Shown here: positions 8,877 to 18,002 of the stretch, in pieces | Layout: every line of letters begins with the position of its first letter | How positions within the stretch are numbered: the first letter of the stretch is position 1 | Assembly: GCF_014697545.1 (NCBI RefSeq) | Contig: NZ_JACJSA010000020.1 | Coordinates: 89,537-153,536 of the forward strand | Direction of reading: 5' to 3' | Length of the DNA: 64,000 nucleotides | From: Oscillatoria sp. FACHB-1407 | GTDB lineage: Bacteria > Cyanobacteriota > Cyanobacteriia > Elainellales > Elainellaceae | Translations under genes and position numbers: made by a program | Notes under the pieces: model-generated | The model's database searches: none | Told to the model about the DNA's origin: nothing | Seen by the model: only the letters and a program-made list of their open reading frames with translations

Positions 8877-9037
8877 CTAACATCAGTTCGGTTTAAGAGC
8901 CTGGCGAATAAATTCGCGGCTAACAAAGCGAAGTCCGCCGACGCGGACTCTGGAAGAGGCAGGATGTGACGAACCGACGCAGGTCGGTTTTGCTGCGATA
9001 GCGGCGGTTTTAACCGCCAAAATCCTGATCCCAAATT
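8877..9037 (-). repeat. Dispersed palindromic repeat, copy 1
   Basis: Read on the minus strand this stretch matches 15995-16153 at about 85 per cent over some 150 bases. It contains three short palindromes, including GGCGGTTAAAACCGCC and GTCCGCGTCGGCGGAC. Open frames across it give a similar peptide in both copies (PPLSxQNxPASVxxIL), which is a by-product of the repeat and not a gene. Confidence 0.85.
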
Positions 9038-9089
9038 CACGTTCATTTAAATTCGTCCTGCAATCGTGCTACCCACTGCCTCGATCCTG

Positions 9090-10310
9090 CTAAACCGCTA
9101 ACTGAACTGATGTGACTCCCTGACGCAACTGTCGCTGTCGAGCAACCCAGGAATAGCGAACAGGATAACGAATTAGCGGAGCAAACTGGCTGACTCCCCA
9201 TTGCAGCAAGGGGTAATTTCCCAGCAACTCTGCTTGGGCTGCCTCTTGATGTTGTAACTGCTGAGCACGCATAATTTCTGGCTCGCGTGCTGCTTGAATC
9301 TGGGGTAATACCTGGTCGATGCACACCAGTTCCTCTGACGAGGGAATTGCTGCCTGGGAGACTCCCTGCATTAGTGGGACGAGATGATTGGCAGCGACAA
9401 TGCTATCGCGCAGTGCCATATTGATCCCCTGTGCTCGAATTGGTGACATGGGGTGAGCCGCATCCCCTAGCAGCAATAATCCTGGCACCCACCATTGAGG
9501 ACAGCGACCCACAACGACGGAGAGTAGGACGGGACGTTCCAGCGAATCGGCAACTGTCCGAAAATGATCTGCCAACCAATCTGGAGAAGCTGATGCCAGA
9601 GTTTTAGCCCAATCGATCTGTTTCCAGTCTTGGGTGCGATCGCCCAGTGCCCATCCGACTTGCAAATTTCCCTCCGAACTGCGAAACAACCCAAAGGCGT
9701 GTTGTCCCTGAACGATGGAATAGAAAATATTTTCAGCCTCAAACTGAGGACTGTCTGCCAGACGAAACCAGAGGATATCGAACGCATTGGATTGGTGTTG
9801 CAGCGAGAGATTAGCTTGCCGTCGGGCAACTGAGTTGCGTCCATCAGTCGCAATGACCAGAGATGCGGCGATCGCTCGATGATCTGCCAGTCTCACCCCT
9901 GACACGCGTCCATTAGATGTCAGCAAGTCTTGAACCGCCACACCCTGCACAAACTCAACATGAGGGTAATGGCTGAGTTGATCGATTAACGCCGTTAGCA
10001 AAGCCGATTGAGAAACCAGCGTACAGGGTTCTCCTCCCGGTTCAATTGGCTCCTGAACCCGAAACAGCGATCGCCCATTGATCCAAAACTCCCAGGCAGT
10101 CAGTGGACGATGGGGAATGCCTTGTAACACAGCAGTTAAGCCCATCTGATGGAGAGCATCCAATCCGCTTGGCATTAACCCCTCTCCGCGAAACGTCCGC
10201 TGAAAGGTGTTTGATGCCTCAATCAGCGTCACTGAAATGCCTCGTTGGGCTAACAGCAAGGCTAGAGTTGCTCCGCCTGGTCCTGCCCCCACAATAACAA
10301 TCTGACTCAT
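9090..10310 (-). CDS. FAD-dependent monooxygenase (UbiH/PHBH-like)
   Basis: A 406-residue flavoprotein. The start at 10310 places the dinucleotide-binding motif IVIVGAGPGGATLALLLAQR at residues 4-23, as usual; the frame reaches further upstream to 10352. A second FAD motif LLLLGDAAHPMSP with a following GQGIN-like AQGINMAL lies near residue 280. These are the signatures of aromatic hydroxylase/UbiH-type single-component monooxygenases, which use NAD(P)H and O2 to hydroxylate an organic substrate. The substrate cannot be inferred. It stands alone between a repeat and a small gene. Confidence 0.9.
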   Translation of the reverse strand: MSQIVIVGAGPGGATLALLLAQRGISVTLIEASNTFQRTFRGEGLMPSGLDALHQMGLTAVLQGIPHRPLTAWEFWINGRSLFRVQEPIEPGGEPCTLVSQSALLTALIDQLSHYPHVEFVQGVAVQDLLTSNGRVSGVRLADHRAIAASLVIATDGRNSVARRQANLSLQHQSNAFDILWFRLADSPQFEAENIFYSIVQGQHAFGLFRSSEGNLQVGWALGDRTQDWKQIDWAKTLASASPDWLADHFRTVADSLERPVLLSVVVGRCPQWWVPGLLLLGDAAHPMSPIRAQGINMALRDSIVAANHLVPLMQGVSQAAIPSSEELVCIDQVLPQIQAAREPEIMRAQQLQHQEAAQAELLGNYPLLQWGVSQFAPLIRYPVRYSWVARQRQLRQGVTSVQLAV

Positions 10311-10494
10311 GCCGCTACTGCTTTTAGCAGTTTGTGTAGTGCTACGCATCAAGCTTAGAGCAAAGAGAGGTTGGGTAGTGTTTCAGACCTGTTGCTACTA
10401 ACCCCCCGGGTGTCGCCGTTCCCCTTACCAAGGGGGACTACAGGGGGTCTTACAGAGGTTATCAACAGGTTTGGAACACCACCTTTTTAATGGG

Positions 10495-10725
10495 TTAAAA
10501 ATTGCTGTACTCGTTGGAGCAATCTCTAAACTCAATGCCACGGTGCTTAGCTGCATTTTGGGCGAATTCGTAAGCCATTTCGTAAGATTTAGAAGTATGA
10601 ATTGCAACCCAATCTGAACGGTCTTCACATCCGGCACATAACTCAAGACAATTGCCAGAAACGTAAACTGTGAAGAAGGTAGGTTTATTTGATGACCGTG
10701 CTTGCTGCATAACTAAACCCTTCAT
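10495..10725 (-). CDS. Small hypothetical protein
   Basis: A 76-residue frame from the ATG at 10725, with a second ATG at 10710. It holds a beta-like stretch (TFFTVYVSGNCLELCAGC) with three closely placed Cys residues, then a helical part (SYEMAYEFAQNAAKHRGIEF). The balanced composition and the absence of a better frame favour a real gene. Family unknown. Confidence 0.5.
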   Translation of the reverse strand: MKGLVMQQARSSNKPTFFTVYVSGNCLELCAGCEDRSDWVAIHTSKSYEMAYEFAQNAAKHRGIEFRDCSNEYSNF

Positions 10726-11348
10726 ATTGCCATCTCAACAGAACAGGAACACACCCTCATCATCTGATTCGCTTTCACGAAGGGTTCCTTTCTAAAGAAA
10801 GATGTCAGAAATGCTAGATGTAACATTCAATCGTATTGGCAATTGTAAAGTGATAACGAATGCTCGAACTTCAGGAACAGATTGGTGTAATTTTATCCTT
10901 TTGGCGATTTACTAGCCCTTCTATAATCTGCTTATAAATGGGCGTAGAGCCATTGGATATCAAGGAATGGATAGGCAATAGTTTTCACCAACCGCAATAG
11001 AACACCCCAATTCTTGGCTACAAGTATCAAGCATCTGGAAGCCTGGTACAGCAAACAGAAGCTGATCATAGCAAACCTGACCTTGGATGAGATAAACCAA
11101 TAATTTACAACAATATTAGTAATTTGTTAGTGGGTATTTTTTGTGGGATATAAGCGTTCTCATACCCCACAAACACTACTTGGATGGCGATCGCCATCCA
11201 GGTGAATCCATCCACGCCTATTAGAATCCAGTCCGCAACTCGTGTGAGCTTCGCCGAACCTCAAACACTCAACGTCTGGAGTTCGCATCGAAATCAGCCG
11301 TTTCAACCGCCAAAATCCCTATCCCACATTCAACTGGAGGAGTTGAGA
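10726..11348. other. Intergenic region with a hairpin and a partial repeat
   Basis: No gene seen. A hairpin with arms TTTGTGGG (11140-11147) and CCCACAAA (11166-11173) lies in the middle. From about 11293 to 11320 the words AACCGCCAAAATCC and following bases match the edge of the dispersed palindromic repeat found at 8877-9037, so this is probably a decayed copy. Confidence 0.5.
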
Positions 11349-11894
11349 TCAGGTTGCCAAACTACTATCGCCACCTTCTAACAGAGTGCCTTCTAAATTG
11401 GCATCTTCTAGATTGGCACCCCCCAAATTGGCACCCTCCAGAGCTGCCTGGTTAAGGTTTGCCTGTTGAAGATCGGCGATCGCCAGATTTGCGCCACTTA
11501 AATCAGCGGCTTCTAAATTAGCACCCTGCATATCTGCCTGTGCCAGGTCTGCCTGGTTCAAATTCGCCTGAACCAGGTTTGCAGCTTGTAGGTCGGCTTG
11601 ACCCAGAACAGCGCGATCGAGAATTGCCCCCTCTAAAATCGCCCCATCTAAAGTGGCATCGCTTAGATTGGCTCCGCTCAGATCAGCCTGAGTCAGATCG
11701 GCTCCATTGAGATCGGCTCCACTCAGATCAGCCTCTCGGAGTTTGGCATGACGCAGATTGGCTCCATCCAGGGTTGCCCCTTGTAAAACAACGCCATCCA
11801 GGTCAACCCCTTCCAGTTCTGCTTCGCTGAGATTCGCAACACTAAAATCTCGTTCGCCCGCAGCATAGCGTTGCATCAGTTCTTCTACGTTCAT
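11349..11894 (-). CDS. Pentapeptide-repeat protein
   Basis: A 181-residue protein of which about residues 20-175 are A(D/N)LxxA pentapeptide repeats (for example ADLSGADLNGADLTQADLSG), which fold as a right-handed quadrilateral beta-helix. The N-terminal 20 residues (MNVEELMQRYAAGERDFSVA) are the usual helical cap. There is no signal peptide, so the protein is cytoplasmic. Cyanobacteria have many such proteins, most of unknown role. It is monocistronic. Confidence 0.92.
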   Translation of the reverse strand: MNVEELMQRYAAGERDFSVANLSEAELEGVDLDGVVLQGATLDGANLRHAKLREADLSGADLNGADLTQADLSGANLSDATLDGAILEGAILDRAVLGQADLQAANLVQANLNQADLAQADMQGANLEAADLSGANLAIADLQQANLNQAALEGANLGGANLEDANLEGTLLEGGDSSLAT

Positions 11895-12168
11895 CGTTTC
11901 TTCCTCTACCGTAATTCCGCAGCTTCACTTCCTGAATGACTCAAAGAGTTGGCAATCAAGGTTGTTCGAGTTCAAAGGATAACCATTCTATTCGTTAGAA
12001 CTCCGTTGGAATGCGATGTATTCCCTTCACCGTAAACTAACCCTTTTAACAAAACCCCTGTCTTGAGACACACCTTCCCGATCTGTATAACAAAAATGAA
12101 GTGACAGATATTGATTTTTGTCATTCCACTTGCTACAGTGGAAACAACTCAACACAGGAGTAATCATT

Positions 12169-15870: not shown

Positions 15871-15994
15871 TGGTGGTATAGATGGGCAATTGCTCAGATC
15901 TATCTTAATATCAAGATACTTTCCTTAAAGGTAAATGTCAAGAATCTCGACGTCGAGATAAAAAATGGAGCGAATCCCTGCCACTGAACCTGAG

Positions 15995-16153
15995 CTTGGG
16001 AGCAGAATTATGACGGTTGAAACCGCCGCTATCGGAGCAAAACCAACCTGCGTCGGTTCATCAAATCCTGCATCTTCCGGAGTCCACGTCGGCGGACTTC
16101 GCTCCAGTAGCCGCGAATTCATTTTCCGGGCTCTTAAACCGAACTGACGTTAA
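15995..16153 (+). repeat. Dispersed palindromic repeat, copy 2
   Basis: Plus-strand copy of the element at 8877-9037, about 85 per cent alike. It holds the same palindromes (CCTGCGTCGGTT, CCACGTCGGCGGAC) and ends at GAACTGACGTTAA where the other has GAACTGATGTTAG. Confidence 0.85.
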
Positions 16154-16259: not shown

Positions 16260-16973
16260 TCACGTAACATCTGCTGTAACAGCTAAATCAGCTTGCTGAT
16301 TTGCTGGTAGAGAAGGTATTGTTTTTGTTGTATGCCACTTAATTTCACTTTGCCAGCTGATTAAATCAATAAGACTGTTGCAGGTATTACATCTAATGGA
16401 TGAAACATTTTTCATCACTGCATTCTGCTCATTGCAATGAGGACAAAAGATCACTCCATCACTGACATTGAGAAGGAGCTTATTCAAAATTGCCCTTTGT
16501 TCTTGAGTAAGAGTTTCCCCAAGTCGAGTTATTTTGAGTTTGGCACGGGTAAGGTTGCGACTGAAGTAATCCTTTGGGATTGGAATTAAATCTTCTTCAA
16601 GATGACTTAGTACGAGATTAGTTTGATTTACTGCCTCTCGAAATTGAAACAAAACCTCAAAAGCTGGATTTCGATCAATAGCTTGCATCAACAGAAAAAG
16701 ACTATTTTGAAGCCTCACGACTAGATAAAGTGCATCTTTTTCCAATTCAGATTCAGCTAATTTGCGTTGGAGATCACTAATTTGATCTTTGCTTGTGTCA
16801 GAAAGTTCGTGATAGCGTTTCTCTAAAGCATCACGACTATTAATAAGTTCCTCATTAACCTTTTCAAGCTGTTTGACTGCTTGTCTGTCTTGTTCACCAG
16901 CAGCATGACTTGTAATTGCCCCAGCAACAAATCCAACAGCTGCACATAATCCTCCAATTATAAAAGGAAGCAT
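16260..16973 (-). CDS. Membrane-anchored coiled-coil zinc-ribbon protein
   Basis: A 237-residue protein. One N-terminal membrane helix (about 4-24, FIIGGLCAAVGFVAGAIT) precedes a coiled coil (about 30-80). A helical middle section leads to a zinc ribbon CPHC at 177-180 and CNTC at 195-198, and a short tail follows. No known family was recognised. It starts nine bases after the HNH-like membrane gene on the same strand, so the two form an operon. The zinc ribbon could bind nucleic acid or protein; the arrangement suggests a membrane-anchored partner of the upstream protein. Confidence 0.75.
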   Translation of the reverse strand: MLPFIIGGLCAAVGFVAGAITSHAAGEQDRQAVKQLEKVNEELINSRDALEKRYHELSDTSKDQISDLQRKLAESELEKDALYLVVRLQNSLFLLMQAIDRNPAFEVLFQFREAVNQTNLVLSHLEEDLIPIPKDYFSRNLTRAKLKITRLGETLTQEQRAILNKLLLNVSDGVIFCPHCNEQNAVMKNVSSIRCNTCNSLIDLISWQSEIKWHTTKTIPSLPANQQADLAVTADVT

Positions 16974-16982
16974 AGGAAACTC

Positions 16983-18002
16983 CTACTCCTTATTATTAGA
17001 GGGAAGCAAAATTTGGTCAGAAGCTTGAATGCATTCTGAGGTAAATGAAGAAACAAGAGATTGATGAATTTTCAAGGATTCTGTGTAACGCTTGAGTGCT
17101 CCTTCTACCCCAGCCTCTCGTGGACGGTTCACAATTTCTGCACTAGTTTCCTTGGCTTGTGCAAGTAAAGCCATTGTTTTATCGTGTTCGTAGATTAATT
17201 CCTCTTCAACTCTTGATAAATATTGCAGTTGATCCTGAGTCAAAGATTTATAGTAACTGCGGACTTGGGTTTTGTGATCATCCAGGATTTGAAAGAACTG
17301 ATGAATCATACCAACTCCGCCGACCACCAAAAGAGCAGGAGAAATGGCTGTAAGTGCAATAGCAACTGGGGGACAAGCAACAGCTATTGTGGTTACTGTG
17401 AAAGCAGAAACTGCCCCAATTCCACCACCAATTGCTGTTTCCTTTGCAGTTTCTAAAGCTGCTTGCTGAGCTGTAATTTCTCCTCGGACAACTCTCAATG
17501 AATTCTTGAGTAAAGCAAATGGAATAGTTGTAGCTGCACCAATTGCTGCTCCTTTTGGCATTGCCCCTAGCCCAGCTTTCATAGCCCCAGTCAGATTGTC
17601 AAACTGCGCTTTGACTTCTAGCCGTGCTTGTTCTTGTTTCGTCATTGAACGATCGCCACGGGCACGATTTGATGATTTGTCCTCCCACTTAATATTGTCG
17701 GGATGCGCTGACCCTCCTTTGCTGTGAGGTTGAATATGACTAGCATCCTTATTAGCTAGATATTCTTTGACATTTCTAGCAGCAGATTCCCCATCAACTC
17801 CTGCTCGCTGAGAAGGTGGGATCTTTTCGAGTAGCTGCTGCATTTCAGCTTGTGTGCGCCCTGCTCCTTCGCGGATTCCGCCTCTATAGAAATGGTTTAC
17901 TTTTTCTGGGGTGAAGTTTTTAATGTTTTCTAAAGAAGCATGATGAACCTTAATATTAGCCGTAGCATTAACTGCTGAGTTGCGCTGAGAATCGTCTGAC
18001 AT
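16983..18002 (-). CDS. HNH-like membrane protein, first gene of an unrecognised two-gene operon
   Basis: A 339-residue protein. At about 86-116 it reads DASHIQPHSKGGS, then PDNIKW and SSNRARG, the pattern of an HNH/His-Me-finger core (His 89, His 93, Asn 103, Asn 112); the first Asp-His of typical cores is Ser-His here. Hydrophobic, glycine-rich stretches at about 146-168 and 190-235 (GGGIGAVSAFTVTTIAV and following) suggest membrane helices. The rest is charged and helical. It could be a toxin or defence effector that acts at the membrane, or the HNH-like block could be degenerate. It precedes the zinc-ribbon gene by nine bases. The pair is AT-rich and is preceded, beyond 16259, by dispersed repeats. 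Confidence 0.7.
   Translation of the reverse strand: MSDDSQRNSAVNATANIKVHHASLENIKNFTPEKVNHFYRGGIREGAGRTQAEMQQLLEKIPPSQRAGVDGESAARNVKEYLANKDASHIQPHSKGGSAHPDNIKWEDKSSNRARGDRSMTKQEQARLEVKAQFDNLTGAMKAGLGAMPKGAAIGAATTIPFALLKNSLRVVRGEITAQQAALETAKETAIGGGIGAVSAFTVTTIAVACPPVAIALTAISPALLVVGGVGMIHQFFQILDDHKTQVRSYYKSLTQDQLQYLSRVEEELIYEHDKTMALLAQAKETSAEIVNRPREAGVEGALKRYTESLKIHQSLVSSFTSECIQASDQILLPSNNKE

Follow-up and report, generated by a model that had tools for sequence, protein, structure and literature searches.

A conserved cyanobacterial gene cassette pairing an HNH-type, predicted membrane protein with a modular partner, a candidate membrane-bound anti-invader system

Introduction

The HNH, or beta-beta-alpha-metal, endonucleases (Pfam HNH and HNH_5; phrog_5718 of PHROGs) carry H, GG, N, and N residues in a set order and spacing, and in many HNH enzymes a metal-binding Asp, Glu, or His precedes the general-base histidine. 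The same order and spacing recur in the first gene of a two-gene locus that we describe from a 64,000-nucleotide stretch of Oscillatoria sp. FACHB-1407 (contig NZ_JACJSA010000020.1, positions 89,537 to 153,536; the whole stretch is hereafter the window). This first open reading frame (ORF), ORF1 (window positions 16983 to 18002; minus strand, as are all features of the pair given below), encodes 339 residues in which a homologue alignment and an AlphaFold2 model delimit an HNH-type domain, a Gly-rich hydrophobic domain predicted to lie in the membrane, and a C-terminal helical region. The second, ORF2 (16260 to 16973), encodes a 237-residue membrane-anchor and coiled-coil partner with a C-terminal zinc ribbon. 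The nine-base spacer between them (16974 to 16982) is as reported by the first-pass annotation, which had read the letters of the sequence alone. A literature search, which did not reach many journals, found no publication describing the pair.

PDC-M09, a defence candidate in PADLOC, is likewise a two-gene unit (genes A and B). Positions 210 to 348 of PDC-M09B match ORF1 residues 104 to 242 (E value, 8.5e-5), a Gly-rich hydrophobic stretch in which the similarity may be compositional, and PDC-M09A looks, by reading, like a coiled-coil protein, as does ORF2. The N-terminal domain of PDC-M09B differs from ORF1, however, with no HNH motif seen in the two members read. Because the match to PDC-M09B is confined to ORF1 residues 104 to 242 and the window's ORF2 has no PDC-M09A match, we ruled out that the pair is PDC-M09; one relative's partner has a marginal PDC-M09A match (0.0065). 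In two PDC-M09 pairs (L061, 5203 to 7503; L062, 6012 to 8359), the B protein carries a candidate PD-(D/E)xK-like motif before its Gly-rich hydrophobic domain, an architecture that we read as parallel to that of ORF1.

Relatives of ORF2 end in other domains, several of which are known from described systems. The dynamin DynA has an anti-phage role and delays phage lysis (PMC8844932). The LeoBC model of PADLOC, from the Eleos system, matches the dynamin-tailed partners in L057 (2e-10) and L058 (4e-9) and a separate dynamin gene in L055 (2e-9), but Eleos/LeoBC and the bacterial dynamins differ from the cassette, in which only some membrane anchors end in dynamin and an HNH protein is encoded alongside. 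The window pair itself is not an Eleos or dynamin defence, as its ORF2 has a zinc ribbon and no GTPase, and dynamin occurs only in some relatives. In cyanobacteria, the FGE/C-type-lectin conflict systems (VMAP-ternary systems and targets of diversity-generating retroelements) share with the cassette an FGE-sulfatase domain that is exchangeable, and FGE domains of the C-type-lectin fold have been proposed as antigen sensors (PMC10907252). No STAND or AP-ATPase domain was found in ORF1, ORF2, nine scanned partners, or the one separate dynamin gene, and a VMAP/STAND-type conflict system was set aside because the scanned proteins contain no regulatory NTPase; when 11 sequences were scanned with a simple regular expression, no reverse transcriptase motif of the diversity-generating type was seen. 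ORF1 and ORF2 are also not components of DISARM or Ssp, whose genes are mere plasmid neighbours of some copies: no Drm or Ssp model matches them.

We argue that ORF1 and ORF2 form a conserved cyanobacterial cassette that is likely, at a probability of roughly 0.55, a membrane-bound anti-invader system in which the tail of ORF2 would sense and ORF1 would cut nucleic acid. The evidence is the pairing of the two genes, the invariant motif of ORF1, the diversity and scatter of the ORF2 tails, the presence of dynamin as a fused domain or as the next gene, and the plasmid and phage-type setting of some copies. Where the first-pass annotation had suggested a toxin or defence system, the defence half is plausible from these data, and a toxin in the exported sense is unsupported.

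Results

The two genes are a conserved and patchily distributed pair

Twenty-nine distinct close-type loci were fetched through ORF1 (the window, L013, L035 to L051, L055 to L060, L088, and L090 to L092), a count without repeat entries for one place and without the distant L052. Rare co-occurrence had been named beforehand as an observation that would refute the first reading; instead, an ORF2-type gene lies next on the same strand in all 23 loci in which ORF1 is intact. The gaps between the two genes, measured in 17 loci, are mostly 6 to 35 bases, with 201 in L044, 426 in L045, and an overlap in L058. ORF1 is frameshifted, truncated, or fragmentary in the remaining six loci (L013 and L047 to L051), two of which (L047 and L050) have ORF2. 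Three loci reached by the biased route of partner-tail searches (L133, L135, and L138) carry both genes, with ORF1 broken in L135.

A 386-genome sample of the phylum contains close-type ORF1 in nine genomes (at least 52% identity over at least 131 residues), and G385 has a fragment of 71 residues. Seven genomes of this sample, where at most seven candidates were scored per genome, contain the ORF2 anchor, and it adjoins ORF1 in 7/7; three other ORF2 matches cover the zinc ribbon only. Among 60 genomes around the window, six have any ORF1 match and two the close type (the window's own genome, included in both counts, and G050). On these counts, the cassette is patchily distributed across cyanobacteria.

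Distant stand-alone homologues of ORF1 align only to about residue 255 (to residue 296 in one that has internal stops), and their loci yielded no ORF2. For these two reasons, the C-terminal helical region of ORF1 (residues 236 to 339; 16986 to 17297) is a candidate ORF2-binding part, and its helices may dock ORF2.

ORF1 combines an HNH-type core with a hydrophobic region

Searches returned 324 ORF1 homologues at an E value of ≤0.001, of which 120 were listed and used for close-homologue residue counts. H89, N103, E107, N112, R115, D86, and G97 are each present in 120/120 of these and H93 in 119; H89, H93, N103, and N112 are invariant across 30 aligned ORF1 relatives. A further 21 rows were aligned, of which 20 distant ones (25 to 37% identity) count, as the other, the 99-residue close-type fragment L022, stops short of the HNH block. 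All 20 retain H89, N103, E107, N112, R115, and G97, residue 86 is D in 13 and H in 7, and residue 93 is H in 10, R in 9, and Y in 1. It is because of this variation that we place His93 outside the deep core; the HNH-like core that the first-pass annotation had built on His89, His93, Asn103, and Asn112 is otherwise correctly placed.

The core (residues 85 to 116, KDASHIQPHSKGGSAHPDNIKWEDKSSNRARG; 17655 to 17750) is predicted to form a strand-strand-helix unit. The AlphaFold2 model of ORF1 has a mean predicted local distance difference test (pLDDT) score of 60.5, with ten-residue blocks in 21 to 40 and 51 to 140 scoring 71 to 90, and it places strands at 85 to 89 and 104 to 108 and a helix at 109 to 115 (blocks there, 71 to 87), the arrangement that an HNH fold needs. 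The invariant H89, N103, and N112 and these predicted elements together give ORF1 the H...N...N/H core in a predicted beta-beta-alpha fold that marks the HNH superfamily. The phrog_5718 (HNH) profile matches the window's ORF1 at 5e-5 and 28/30 aligned members at ≤0.01 (best, 2e-5). We regard the label "HNH-type" as well supported by sequence, and ORF1 as a putative active nuclease.

Residues 139 to 235 (17298 to 17588) form the Gly-rich hydrophobic region, which agrees with the membrane-type stretches first read from the letters; this fused domain sets ORF1 apart from the HNH endonucleases. Membrane helices are predicted there, and the region is modelled at low confidence (pLDDT, about 30 to 63 in blocks from residue 141). 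The hydrophobic and helical parts make up the larger share of ORF1. The NCBIfam family MamC scores 18.7 bits on ORF1 (E value, 0.0017), where its cut-off is 100. The first reading had recognised no family for the pair, and profile searches likewise gave none above a curated cut-off; neither protein is covered by a curated family in the scans made. The label PF26373, precomputed on some ORF1 relatives, was not recovered by a Pfam scan of two of them (P0064 and P0116), and part of ORF1 may thus already carry a family number.

Two stand-alone HNH-membrane subfamilies (L063 to L074; SHI...GG...N...E...N...R) have long N-terminal helical extensions and lack ORF2, and one member weakly matches ZorA models (4e-4).

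ORF2 joins a constant anchor to interchangeable tails

ORF2 has 26 homologues at an E value of ≤0.001 and no curated family above its cut-off in Pfam or NCBIfam. Its model (mean pLDDT, 83.3) contains helices at residues 2 to 26, 30 to 58, 67 to 101, 105 to 124, 136 to 150, and 157 to 170, followed at 173 to 203 (16365 to 16457) by a four-strand ribbon with cysteines C177, C180, C195, and C198 (CxxC-x14-CxxC). The membrane helix, coiled coil, and zinc ribbon proposed from the letters correspond in this model to helix 2 to 26, the long helices 30 to 58 and 67 to 101, and the ribbon. What was not foreseen is that ORF2 is modular. Residues 2 to 150 (16524 to 16970), a Gly-rich N-terminal helix, a coiled coil, and a helical domain, are common to the partners found, and beyond this anchor of about 150 residues the C terminus differs by lineage, the zinc ribbon being one of at least seven kinds of tail (zinc ribbon, FGE/C-type lectin, LRV repeats, dynamin GTPase, CorM actin, GUN4, and degenerate FtsZ).

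The zinc ribbon, read from the letters, is the tail in the window, L035, L036, L038, L041, and L046, and in L060 it lies ahead of an FGE domain. FGE-sulfatase tails were assigned by Pfam in L042 and L060 (3e-47 and 2e-46) and by letters in L039, where, at 9037 to 12090, the FGE-tailed partner is seemingly interrupted by an opposite-strand ORF of 515 residues with an FGE-like fragment past it. LRV repeats occur in L043 and L040 (3e-7 and 5e-5), the latter also having a weak fascin/FRG1-like stretch. Dynamin GTPase tails were found with Pfam Dynamin_N in L045, L057, and L058 (7e-17, 7e-15, and 4e-18) and by a PDB match to bacterial dynamin in L091 (4.5e-8), and in L055 a short partner is followed by dynamin as a separate next gene (Dynamin_N, 5e-17). 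In L044 and in the first partners of L056 and L057, we read from the letters a dynamin-like stalk without the GTPase. The actin tail was assigned by Pfam in L059 (ALP_N, 8e-13), by similarity to L059 in L090, L092, and L133, and by letters in the second partner of L056. ORF2 stops early in L037, L050, L055, and L088, and L047, L056, and L057 have two ORF2 genes apiece.

Precomputed Pfam labels for 49 long partners found with the L059 anchor give actin in 28, dynamin in 12, GUN4 in 3 (one also with FtsZ), and none or YtxH in 6. This mix is skewed to the L059 group, because the search drew its words from that single sequence and restricted the lengths. When six tail types are placed on a tree of ORF1 from 23 loci (the broken L050 was excluded; L133 and L138 are not in it), eight tail changes are needed, against a least possible number of 5 and a shuffled mean of 14.8. 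Tail types are clustered on the tree yet also exchanged; in one genome, the sister ORF1 genes of L056 and L057 have different tails.

Several tails are copies of host-like proteins

The L059 actin tail matches CorM (PDB 9rmi) at 1e-184. Host CorM belongs to the CorMR cell-shape system and is encoded by a core gene that stands alone, whereas the cassette form is fused to an ORF2 anchor adjoining ORF1. The window pair is not CorMR, as it contains no actin domain and the CorM tail is restricted to some relatives. A CorM gene was found in 80/80 searched genomes of the L059 family, with frames nearly all of 383 to 426 residues; longer, anchor-type frames occur in G086 (514), G469 (518), and G450 (631), with one at a contig edge in G444. 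The stand-alone CorM of G086 (L137) and the fused copy of that genome are 84% identical. Downstream of the former lies a 167-residue gene, presumably CorR, and the small downstream gene has 167 to 170 residues in the three host loci read.

Fused CorM domains were compared in 27 rows (25 distinct), drawn from 23 of the 28 actin-tailed partners (five of <480 residues omitted) and from L059, L090, L092, and L133. Compared with 30 host copies, each is 65 to 90% identical to its best match, and the ATP motifs are kept, DLG and DIG in 27/27 and GGGG in 26/27, with one row partly gapped. A tree of the 30 host and 27 fused domains, made by a quick method and with some long fused branches, needs five label changes, at least two of them forced by well supported branches. 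CorM capture probably happened more than once, and anchor loss could account for some of the changes. In L090 (10012 to 11571), on plasmid A of Trichormus variabilis ATCC 29413, an open frame begins about 460 nucleotides ahead of the start annotated for the ParM/StbA gene; since the full frame includes the ORF2 anchor and the annotated start lies within it, the public annotation hides the fusion.

The FtsZ part of partner P0159 (residues 216 to 444) is 56 to 57% identical to host FtsZ, which is listed in 19/20 genomes; GUN4-type matches are widespread in the same 20. The P0159 match starts at about FtsZ residue 72, and the usual GTP-loop glycines are not in its letters. This tail is a degenerate FtsZ without a recognisable GTP-binding half. 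Dynamin relatives at ≤1e-20 occur in 14/60 genomes, and the partner-tail dynamin is for that reason not a core gene in those genomes.

Copies lie on plasmids and in a probable prophage, at different sites

Among 72,556 plasmid records, nine carry an ORF1 relative. Full-length close-type copies are present on four of these nine, two of the four being near-identical T. variabilis plasmids, and copies of the cassette lie on conjugative plasmids. Known defence genes, the neighbours that the first-pass annotation had proposed to look for, were found on these plasmids. Just upstream of the cassette on Calothrix NIES-22 plasmid2 are consecutive genes that encode DrmB (1e-83), DrmC (3e-129), and two further proteins, of the GmrSD_N and RNase_T/AAA types. 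Downstream of the partner gene of T. variabilis plasmid A, SspB (5e-125) begins after about 3 kb and SspD (7e-119) after about 7 kb, and on Nostoc N6 pNPM2, HEPN, helicase, and VapC genes are near. In L088, the cassette is directly followed by a caspase-like gene (Peptidase_C14, 5.5e-5, above cut-off), and another gene there weakly matches a hydrolase. We consider L088 a probable prophage because tape-measure, endolysin, and ParB-like genes surround the cassette in its IMG/VR record; a search for phrog_2 gave no match.

Across 24 loci, compared with flanks of varying length, a flanking homologue (≤1e-30) is common to six pairs and close in two (L040 and L043, 84%; L044 and L045, 95%). So few shared flanks imply that the cassette occupies different sites.

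Discussion

A proposed membrane-bound defence with an exchangeable sensor

We propose that ORF1 and ORF2 would both sit in the inner membrane, where Gly-rich segments and helical regions of the two proteins would bring them together, and that the ORF2 tail would act as a sensor or bait for disturbance. FGE/C-type-lectin and LRV tails would be binding domains, and CorM actin, FtsZ, and perhaps dynamin tails would be stand-ins for host membrane-cortex machinery that phages disturb. Once activated, the HNH fold of ORF1 would cleave DNA or RNA, attacking invading or host nucleic acid. If the cassette is a defence, it would add a membrane-bound type of HNH effector whose exchangeable sensors, in cyanobacteria, are unusually varied.

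A narrower form of this proposal, which we advance tentatively, makes the ORF2 tail a captured host cortex protein (CorM, FtsZ minus its GTP half, perhaps dynamin) that would serve as bait, such that a phage protein aimed at the host skeleton would strike it and free a membrane-bound HNH nuclease held by the anchor; the window's zinc-ribbon form would then be the compact-sensor version. CapRel-Ebc is a precedent for a defence protein that reads phage attack on a host cytoskeletal protein, as it recognises T7 Gp0.4 bound to host FtsZ (PMC13423816). CapRel-Ebc uses the free host FtsZ, whereas the cassette partner has a copy of the host protein built in, putatively for this purpose. Such a bait system, if real, would be a bacterial counterpart of the integrated decoys in plant immune receptors, and the capture of CorM and partial FtsZ makes it a testable question whether bacteria monitor phage attack on the cytoskeleton through built-in copies of the target.

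Several results weigh against the anti-invader reading. Those that concern ORF1 itself are that it departs from many HNH enzymes by a serine before the putative general-base histidine; that no Pfam or NCBIfam family attains its cut-off on it (HNH_5, E 0.24); and that Foldseek with its model returned nothing at ≤0.001, the non-significant rows including many Cas9 HNH domains and one EcoKMcrA. Others concern the tails. Actin, tubulin, and dynamin tails would fit a cytoskeletal role too; the dynamin-tailed partner of L045 has no LeoBC match; FGE domains are listed as predicted effectors, not sensors, in cyanobacterial conflict systems (PMC7159879); and two genes that fuse the ORF2 anchor, with a multiplied coiled coil, to CorM (L101, 4524 to 6422, on a Dolichospermum plasmid; L134, 3036 to 4928, in G450) have no ORF1 beside them in the stretches searched. 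As to setting, no ORF1 relative was found among 50,697 phage records, and neither the gene annotated DndB on plasmid A nor the L088 caspase has a PADLOC match at 1e-5. Chromosomal copies, read from ORF lists, seem to be single cassettes among ordinary genes rather than parts of defence islands, and the neighbourhood support amounts to three plasmid types and one probable prophage, with no background rate.

Other roles for the pair

Of the other explanations, a cortical cytoskeleton or partition device fares best, though we consider it doubtful. In this view, the HNH-like fold of ORF1 would bind DNA without cutting it and hold it at the membrane, and ORF2 would connect ORF1 with filaments of CorM, FtsZ, or dynamin, organising the membrane or segregating plasmids. 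The actin, FtsZ, and dynamin tails, the ATP motifs kept by fused CorM copies, the copies annotated ParM/StbA on conjugative plasmids, and the anchor-CorM gene without ORF1 on the Dolichospermum plasmid all accord with such a device. It accounts poorly for zinc-ribbon, LRV, FGE, and short tails, which have no filament domain, and for an FtsZ tail without a recognisable GTP-binding half; the patchily spread copies include several on chromosome-sized contigs (L037, L056, and L057), and the invariant H, N, and N of ORF1 are the residues expected for catalysis. Should the cassette have no role in defence, that would still suggest that a DNA-binding membrane protein is linked to the cell cortex in a new way.

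It is unlikely that the HNH-like block is purely structural and the cassette a non-nuclease membrane-stress or envelope system of normal physiology. The lack of a curated HNH match or significant structural match and the mostly hydrophobic and helical make-up of ORF1 would suit this explanation; the H/N/E/N/R core, however, is missing from none of the rows, close or distant, that extend over the block, phrog_5718 recognises nearly all aligned members, and 2/9 plasmid records name the distant relative an HNH endonuclease (the others, hypothetical protein). Less probable still is an addiction or selfish module in which ORF2 would check an ORF1 nuclease toxin to maintain a plasmid or prophage, as strict pairing, short gaps, and plasmid and probable prophage copies might suggest, given that the putative antidote bears large enzymatic or binding tails that differ by lineage, that distant ORF1 relatives stand alone without ORF2, and that chromosome-sized contigs also carry copies.

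Composition and surroundings of the window's copy

Near relatives of the window are Leptolyngbyaceae, and its own genome (G000) comprises 8.1 Mb in 66 contigs. A dispersed repeat of about 150 to 165 bp lies at about 15987 to 16150, with genome-wide copies mostly 84 to 91% identical, and a 221-bp stretch past the 3' end of the operon has at least 41 matches in the genome, itself included (the best 40 of 328 first-look candidates were scored). The dispersed repeats first noticed past the 3' end are thus present; they are a generic element of this genome, and no tie to the operon was seen. The operon is also AT-rich, as first read: its G+C content is 0.413 (ORF1, 0.436; ORF2, 0.380), against a window mean of 0.481 (standard deviation, 0.034), and 4.5% of 1743-bp stretches of the window are as low.

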